Position numbers and translations under genes: made by a program. From Halorubrum halophilum (GTDB taxonomy: Archaea; Halobacteriota; Halobacteria; Halobacteriales; Haloferacaceae): a stretch of 64,000 nt of DNA. Below, piece by piece: positions 12,797-44,659 of this stretch; the first letter of the stretch is position 1; the number at the start of each line of letters is the position of its first letter. Below the pieces are notes generated by a model. It made no database searches, was not told where the DNA came from, and worked only from the letters and a program-made list of their open reading frames with translations. The stretch spans positions 186,001-250,000 of the forward strand of contig NZ_BBJP01000023.1 in assembly GCF_000739595.1 (NCBI RefSeq), read 5' to 3'.

Positions 12797-13047
12797 TGTA
12801 CGGTGGCGCGTGCCGACGAGCAGCCGTCAGGCTGCGAGTCGCACGCGCGAGGGAGTCGGGCGCCCGGAGCAACGCGGAGGGCGACCGACGAGGCTGGGGA
12901 GGTGTGAGGCTGCGGTTGCGGTCGGGTGGGACTCAAAGGGGCAGCCGTGAGGCGGGCGCAGGCGACGCAAGCACCGCAAGGAGCGAGTGAAACGAGCGAC
13001 TGAGGAGCGCAGCGAGCGTGCGCCCGCCTCACGGCTGGGGCTTTGGA
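12797..13047 (+). repeat. 251-nt hairpin-rich element, copy 1 (candidate structured RNA)
   Basis: This is a near full-length homologue of 44241-44491 on the opposite strand. On the plus strand it folds into three hairpins. H1 is 12814-12841: stem CGAC/GTCG, an opposed GA/GA internal loop, stem GCAGCC/GGCTGC and loop GTCA. H2 has arms 12855-12865 and 12879-12889 with 10 of 11 pairs around the conserved loop GGAGCAACGCGGA. H3 has arms 12942-12960 and 13019-13037 (19 perfect pairs) around a 58-nt loop, extended by CAAAG/CTTTG outside a GGG/GGG internal loop. Stems differ from copy 2 by compensating changes. No clear TATA box precedes this copy. It fills most of the 450-bp gap before the ArsA gene; the rest shows nothing further beyond AT-rich sequence near 13070-13110. 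Confidence 0.85.
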
Positions 13048-22971: not shown

Positions 22972-23101
22972 GATCGATAGCGGGAGTGGGTGTTGCAGAT
23001 CGTCGGTGGCAGGAGCATATTTAAAAAGACCTGAGCGACAGCGACGATCGCTTATAAATAACCGTTCCACCAATTCGCTATACCCACTCCCGTTATCAAT
23101 C
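22972..23101 (+). repeat. 130-nt inverted-repeat element (short version of the 44131-44582 unit)
   Basis: It is bounded by 25-nt imperfect inverted repeats at 22972-22996 and 23077-23101 that agree at 21 of 25 positions around a shared CGGGAGTGGGT core. The left block to about 23059 is roughly 85 percent identical to the minus strand of 44492-44582, including the ATTTAAAAAGAC and GCGACGATCG patches. Its last part, TATAAATAACCGTTCCACC, matches the other end of that unit, so this copy is the same element without the 251-nt core. It lies between two convergent genes. Confidence 0.75.
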
Positions 23102-44111: not shown

Positions 44112-44240
44112 GCGCTGGGAAACGGGTGTGAGCGATAGCGGGAGTGGGTATATTGATACGGTGGAGTGGTTGTTTATACGTGATCGAGTGGTGTTGCTGT
44201 CGGCTGTTTATAAGTGGGTAGTGACACTGCGGTGAAAGCT

Positions 44241-44491
44241 TCCAAAGCCCCAGCCGGTGAGGCGGGCGCACGCTCGCTGCGGTCCTCGGTCGTTCGCTTC
44301 GCTCACTCCCTGTGGTCCTTGCGTCGCCTGCGCCCGCCTCACCGGCTGCCCCTTTGAGTCCCACCCGACCGCACAGCCTCACACCTCCCCAGCCTCGTCG
44401 GGCGTCCTCCGCGTTGCTCCGGACGCCCGACTCCCTCGCACCGGCGGTTCGCGCCGCGTTGCGGCGCTCACCGGGGCGCGCCACCGCACAT
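44241..44491 (-). repeat. 251-nt hairpin-rich element, copy 2 (candidate structured RNA)
   Basis: On the minus strand it folds as copy 1 does. H1 at 44473-44445: CGGT/ACCG, opposed GA/GA, GCGCCGC/GCGGCGC and loop AAC. H2: 11 perfect pairs, GTCGGGCGTCC/GGACGCCCGAC, around GGAGCAACGCGGA (44431-44397). H3: arms 44348-44329 and 44270-44251, 20 perfect pairs around 58 nt. A TTTATAAA box at 44495-44502 would start a transcript near 44472, at the foot of H1. Confidence 0.85.
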
Positions 44492-44494
44492 CTC

Positions 44495-44502
44495 TTTATA
44501 AA
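44495..44502 (-). promoter_or_regulatory. TATA box in front of element copy 2
   Basis: TTTATAAA, a strong palindromic TATA box, is centred about 26 nt before the first base of hairpin H1 on the minus strand. Copy 1 has no such box. Confidence 0.55.
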
Positions 44503-44659
44503 CGATCGTCGCTATCGCTCGTGTCTTTTTAAATGGGCTCTTTCCACCAACCGATCTGCAACACTCACTCCCGCTATCGATCAAGGGCTCGTCTTCAGCA
44601 ACCGACTGTGTCGGTGTGGTATGTCTAAACAAAACTATCTCAACGAAGTCGCGTAGTCT

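Follow-up and report, generated by a model that had tools for sequence, protein, structure and literature searches.

A covarying three-hairpin element interspersed in the chromosomes of Halobacteria

The element at two loci of the window

The window, that is, the whole stretch of 64,000 nucleotides of Halorubrum halophilum DNA analysed here, contains two copies of a 251-nt conserved core, one on each strand. Copy 1 is intergenic, flanked by genes for a TGT_C2/PUA-domain protein and an ArsA-family ATPase, while the neighbours of copy 2 are an unnamed ORF and a PurK-like gene. The features of both loci, and of one related locus between them, are as follows.

12797..13047, plus strand: copy 1, the 251-nt conserved core
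12806..12848, plus strand: hairpin H1 of copy 1, comprising a lower stem, a bulged C, CGAC/GTCG, an opposed GA/GA and GCAGCC/GGCTGC (from sequence and pair counts)
12855..12889, plus strand: hairpin H2 of copy 1, exchangeable, with one G.A mismatch (from sequence and H2 swapping)
12890..12909, plus strand: conserved G-rich linker GAGGCTGGGGAGGTGTGAGG of copy 1, the most conserved unpaired segment of the element, common to several genera
12934..13045, plus strand: long hairpin H3 of copy 1, closed by CAAAG/CTTTG and containing an invariant GGG x GGG internal loop
22972..23101, strand not given: core-less short version (130 bp) of the inverted-repeat unit of copy 2
44130..44582, minus strand: larger unit around copy 2, with imperfect inverted repeats of GATCGATAGCGGGAGTGGGT at 44130-44149 and 44563-44582
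44241..44491, minus strand: copy 2, the 251-nt conserved core
44495..44502, minus strand: TATA-like box TTTATAAA of copy 2 (from sequence)

The original prediction had placed two 251-nt copies at these positions and on these strands, and our comparison agrees, similarity stopping abruptly outside both. Reading the two sequences together also bears out the paired changes that it had described between the copies in H1, H2 and H3, with the addition that copy 1 has a G.A mismatch in H2, omitted at the time, which is perfectly paired in copy 2. Its statement that the element is present twice was mistaken: blastn recovers at least 39 copies in the same genome, and 289 kb of the window's contig contain 16.

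Abundance, distribution and genomic placement

Eleven congeners yielded at least 40-55 blastn matches each. The linker motif GAGGYTGGGGAGG occurs 143 and 100 times in two other Halorubrum genomes, the second of them G007, against 1 and 2 occurrences of the reversed control; since motif counts are a proxy for element copies, these figures should be read as about 143 and about 100, and all copy numbers given here are either lower bounds or motif counts. A contiguous 400-kb stretch of G007 contains approximately 18-20 copies. A covariance model of the 5' domain matched every one of the 35 Halorubrum genomes drawn and, more widely, 79 of 292 Halobacteria genomes representing 21 of 77 genera, with several genera other than Halorubrum having 10-76 matches. 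Exact matches to the core were found in Halorubrum species, Haloparvum, Halobellus, Halorussus and Halosimplex.

All 100 motif matches in G007 lie on its 3.2-Mb contig, the chromosome, and none on the second contig. The element is nearly absent from the plasmid collection, where a single Halorubrum plasmid matched; the phage collection gave no match and IMG/VR held no sequence with the exact 20-mer, and a plasmid or virus origin was rejected on these grounds. No Rfam 15 family matches the window at gathering score, the weak best match (E=0.87) being to a miRNA model on the minus strand, and no description of the element was found in the excerpts of open-access literature searched. This candidate folded RNA, previously uncatalogued, is absent from Rfam. 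None of 64 copies overlaps any of the genes predicted from codon usage in the present analysis. The element is a chromosome-borne, interspersed, intergenic non-coding family of Halobacteria.

Convergent gene pairs are favoured as locations and divergent pairs are avoided, as expected if promoters are spared, and orientation relative to neighbouring genes is loose. Starting from the 16 copies in the window's contig, we found the element at most of the syntenic positions in other Halorubrum, as a rule with unchanged orientation, and missing from several; the majority of sites are old and common to several species. That a given site may lack the element means that none of the copies is individually essential. 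About 22 of the 30 species fetched have the element at the copy-1 site, the upstream gene varying between clades; at the copy-2 site it is present in a minority of species and inverted in one case. At a few syntenic sites the element is inverted; in genome G004, at the copy-2 site (L081), it is flipped between its inverted repeats within an otherwise syntenic locus. Copies at the same site in different species are no more alike than paralogs elsewhere, from which we infer sequence exchange between copies by gene conversion, the alternative being re-insertion at favoured sites. Some shortened copies are explained by deletions between GGCTGGGG repeats.

Strand was not consistently biased along either of the two chromosomes examined (G007 and G053). 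A replication strand bias, noticed post hoc, was suggested by the blastn matches listed, and was discarded when it proved weak or absent in fuller lists. Copies do appear biased to one strand at approximately 0.35-1.34 Mb of the G007 chromosome, not elsewhere nor in G053, and this is probably chance.

Fold, covariation and candidate promoter

Stem cells are paired in 96.6%, 94.9% and 97.6% of cases in the three alignments, and shifting the partner columns by 1-3 lowers this to 17-50%. Covariation was assessed against a phylogeny-preserving null, in which substitutions are shuffled along a FastTree tree (an R-scape-style re-implementation, not R-scape itself). The alignment of 89 sequences contained 14 significant covarying pairs, every one within the proposed stems, and under the same null the two other alignments placed 4 of 4 and 1 of 1 significant pairs within the structure. 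Because the 89-sequence alignment had been fitted to the model, we also tested 121 sequences that MAFFT had aligned blind to structure; all five significant pairs of this alignment belong to the structure, and all are in H1. Covariation therefore exceeds phylogenetic expectation in the fitted and the structure-blind alignments alike, one part of the refutation test that the original prediction had set itself, and the three hairpins are held together by it. Copy 1 has RNA folding z-scores of -6.0 (plus strand) and -5.4 (minus strand). The lower H1 stem shows little covariation, both in pair counts and under the tree-shuffle null, as expected if this stem lies outside the transcript.

The stem sequences are interchangeable, while the G-rich unpaired linkers, the GA/GA loop (in Halorubrum) and the GGG x GGG loop are kept. 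In H2, clustering by sequence divides the 223 distinct segments into 56 groups, with end-to-end pairing retained in 89% of the segments, and some copies carry additionally inserted double hairpins. The GGG x GGG internal loop of H3 is retained in 46 of 46 cases and the GA/GA loop of H1, a Halorubrum feature, in 38 of 42, a few copies being perfectly paired instead. H1, H2 and H3 vary in length without preserving a reading frame, and a coding interpretation was rejected; so was a switch pairing GGCUG of the linker with CAGCC of H3, a pairing that is not kept in other genera.

On the plus strand, stem cells with G-U outnumber those with A-C in all three alignments (39:3, 41:20 and 102:11). Cells are not independent, hence per-pair sign tests are the safer measure, and these gave p=0.23, 0.14 and 0.027 respectively, the first two not being significant alone. 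The excess of G-U over A-C, together with the kept non-pairing loops, speaks for folding of the plus strand, in accordance with the RNA strand predicted from the opposed GA/GA pairs. Selection on a plus-strand fold is well supported.

A TATA-like box accompanies 75 of 123 copies (61%), compared with 10 of 123 in a control stretch. The upper H1 helix begins a median 26 nt after the centre of the box, with 63 of the 75 distances in the range 23-29 nt. Archaeal TATA boxes are centred some 26-27 nt before the start site; the spacing matches an archaeal promoter and a start is therefore predicted at the base of the upper H1 helix, which for copy 2 would be near 44473. A promoter for the complete core was rejected, since this spacing puts the start inside H1 and not at the first base of the core. 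Copy 1 itself has no TATA box, the box being missing in approximately 39% of copies, and many cores have TATA-like boxes on both sides as an inverted pair, which is part of inverted flanking repeats. No TATA box at that spacing was apparent in the copies read from other genera, nor was an A-rich BRE apparent upstream of the TATA-like boxes.

Mobile DNA, folded RNA and related systems

Copy 2 lies within a 453-bp unit that ends in imperfect inverted repeats and is MITE-like in appearance. This inverted repeat has 77 matches in its own genome, against none for the reversed control, and it also flanks other copies; copy 1 and many others are without it, and the core is therefore not tied to the inverted-repeat unit. 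Filled and empty sites were compared for a target-site duplication, for which the flanks are too diverged to define one, and the inverted repeats were not seen to enclose any longer, autonomous partner that encodes a transposase. At the core-less unit (22972-23101) the 5' flank meets the 3' flank at a common TTATAAAT, as would be expected after loss of the core or if none had ever been inserted.

Prokaryotic intergenic repeats are usually explained as mobile DNA, while structured RNA families are usually low-copy genes. The present family bears strong marks of both, with approximately 100 or more copies per chromosome and a strand-biased covariation with exchangeable stems. When it was first described as a candidate structured RNA family, structure and covariation were correctly recognized, and these stand; as a whole account the label is incomplete because of the features of a mobile element, namely inverted-repeat ends, empty sites and nested inserts. 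The reading we prefer, with chances that seem evenly balanced, is of a formerly mobile DNA repeat, now fixed, in which selection acts on the plus strand as a folded RNA with a putative function. The element would have spread as a non-autonomous DNA element before becoming fixed. Many copies would possess their own archaeal promoter, the transcript beginning at the base of the upper H1 helix, and the product would act as RNA, with a scaffold of hairpins and with G-rich segments that may bind protein or form a quadruplex. Gene conversion among copies would maintain the uniformity of the family.

The main rival, somewhat unlikely in our judgement, holds that the element is a non-autonomous mobile DNA whose single-stranded plus strand folds for a host or transposon enzyme, in the manner of REPs or PATEs, any RNA being a by-product. 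High copy number, inverted-repeat ends and composite units, the existence of both filled and empty sites, a solely intergenic placement and nested double-hairpin inserts with GACG ends would all follow from it; however, the flanks of 26 TnpB-type and 3 Y1 transposase genes of the same genome are dissimilar, one chance neighbour excepted, and the lack of a visible autonomous partner, the near-absence from plasmids and absence from phages and the age of most sites sit badly with it, as do hairpin sequences too variable for recognition by sequence. As no sequence is shared with the flanks of these 29 transposase loci, IS605 TnpB/TnpA ancestry and a guide-RNA origin were rejected.

Paired changes might also arise without structural selection, if template switching or gene conversion between hairpin arms perfects palindromes. 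The wholesale replacement of hairpins is consistent with such neutral upkeep, as are the few copies in which perfect pairing replaces the GA/GA loop, but correction between arms would erase the internal loops that are in fact retained, and the process is strand-symmetric while G-U exceeds A-C; we regard it as improbable. The same low probability attaches to a role as double-stranded DNA, whether it forms a cruciform, is a hot spot of recombination or organises the nucleoid: G-T and A-C mismatches should be equivalent in a cruciform, in conflict with the 102:11 observed, and the two chromosomes examined show no consistent strand bias, although the chromosome-only distribution in G007 fits, and the varying neighbours of the copy-1 site and the exchange between copies fit recombination at the element. 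Eukaryotic SINEs, which need reverse transcription, are likewise short elements in many copies with, as in this family, an apparent promoter and a folded RNA (here predicted). SINEs depend on that enzyme, whereas an RVT_1 protein was found in 0 of 52 Halorubrum genomes searched (controls were positive in 3 of 14); folding is therefore not explained by retro-copying, RNA-mediated copying is unlikely in the genus, and SINE-like retrotransposition was rejected.

Among known repeats, the bacterial REP/BIME sequences are likewise high-copy, intergenic, hairpin-forming and often mosaic, with roles proposed at both DNA and RNA level, and CGTC-tagged REPs were reported from five bacterial phyla (PMC3733652). 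REPs are 20-40 bp long with a conserved GTAG or CGTC tag, whereas the Halobacteria core measures approximately 250 nt, with long stretches of conserved unpaired sequence and three hairpins whose stems are exchangeable; we do not place a core of this size and form among palindromes of 20-40 bp. Only the nested inserts, through their GACG ends, resemble the CGTC tag. The PATEs, MITEs and small mobile repeats of Haloquadratum are also transposase-free haloarchaeal repeats with palindromes or inverted repeats, often nested, and PATEs are related to IS605-type ends (PMC3119063). A PATE shares palindromic ends with IS605-type transposons; the cores show no such similarity when set against the 29 transposase loci of their own genome, which are unrelated with the exception of one adjacent copy, and a PATE or IS605-derived assignment was not adopted. 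Copy 2 is composite and MITE-like, but copy 1 and many others are without its inverted repeats, and the excerpted account of Haloquadratum repeats describes no covarying three-hairpin core (PMC3119063). Uncharacterised, conserved and expressed intergenic sRNAs, one of them from Halobellus, have been reported from Halobacteria (PMC7002113); they are similar in size to the element.

A broader conjecture, which we consider unlikely, is of a class-wide SINE-like family contributing at least 100 ncRNA genes per chromosome, many with their own promoter, in which the stems, as freely swapped hairpin cassettes, would surround an invariant G-rich core; this core would fold as a quadruplex in the potassium-rich cytoplasm of haloarchaea and recruit a common protein. 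Whether selection on RNA structure maintains an archaeal repeat becomes testable with this family, whose hundreds of stem variants in a single genus amount to a natural experiment.

Two further arrangements were observed in and beside the cores. Nested double-hairpin inserts of approximately 50 nt, ending in GACG, lie within stems at L024:15849-16149, L083, L065 and G000:C81:163393-163881. On the 3' side of many cores (for example L030, L054 and L013) there are tandem units of approximately 57-62 bp, of the form GGCTGGGGCTTTGGAGGTGTTCACCG...TTTATAAGCGAGC.
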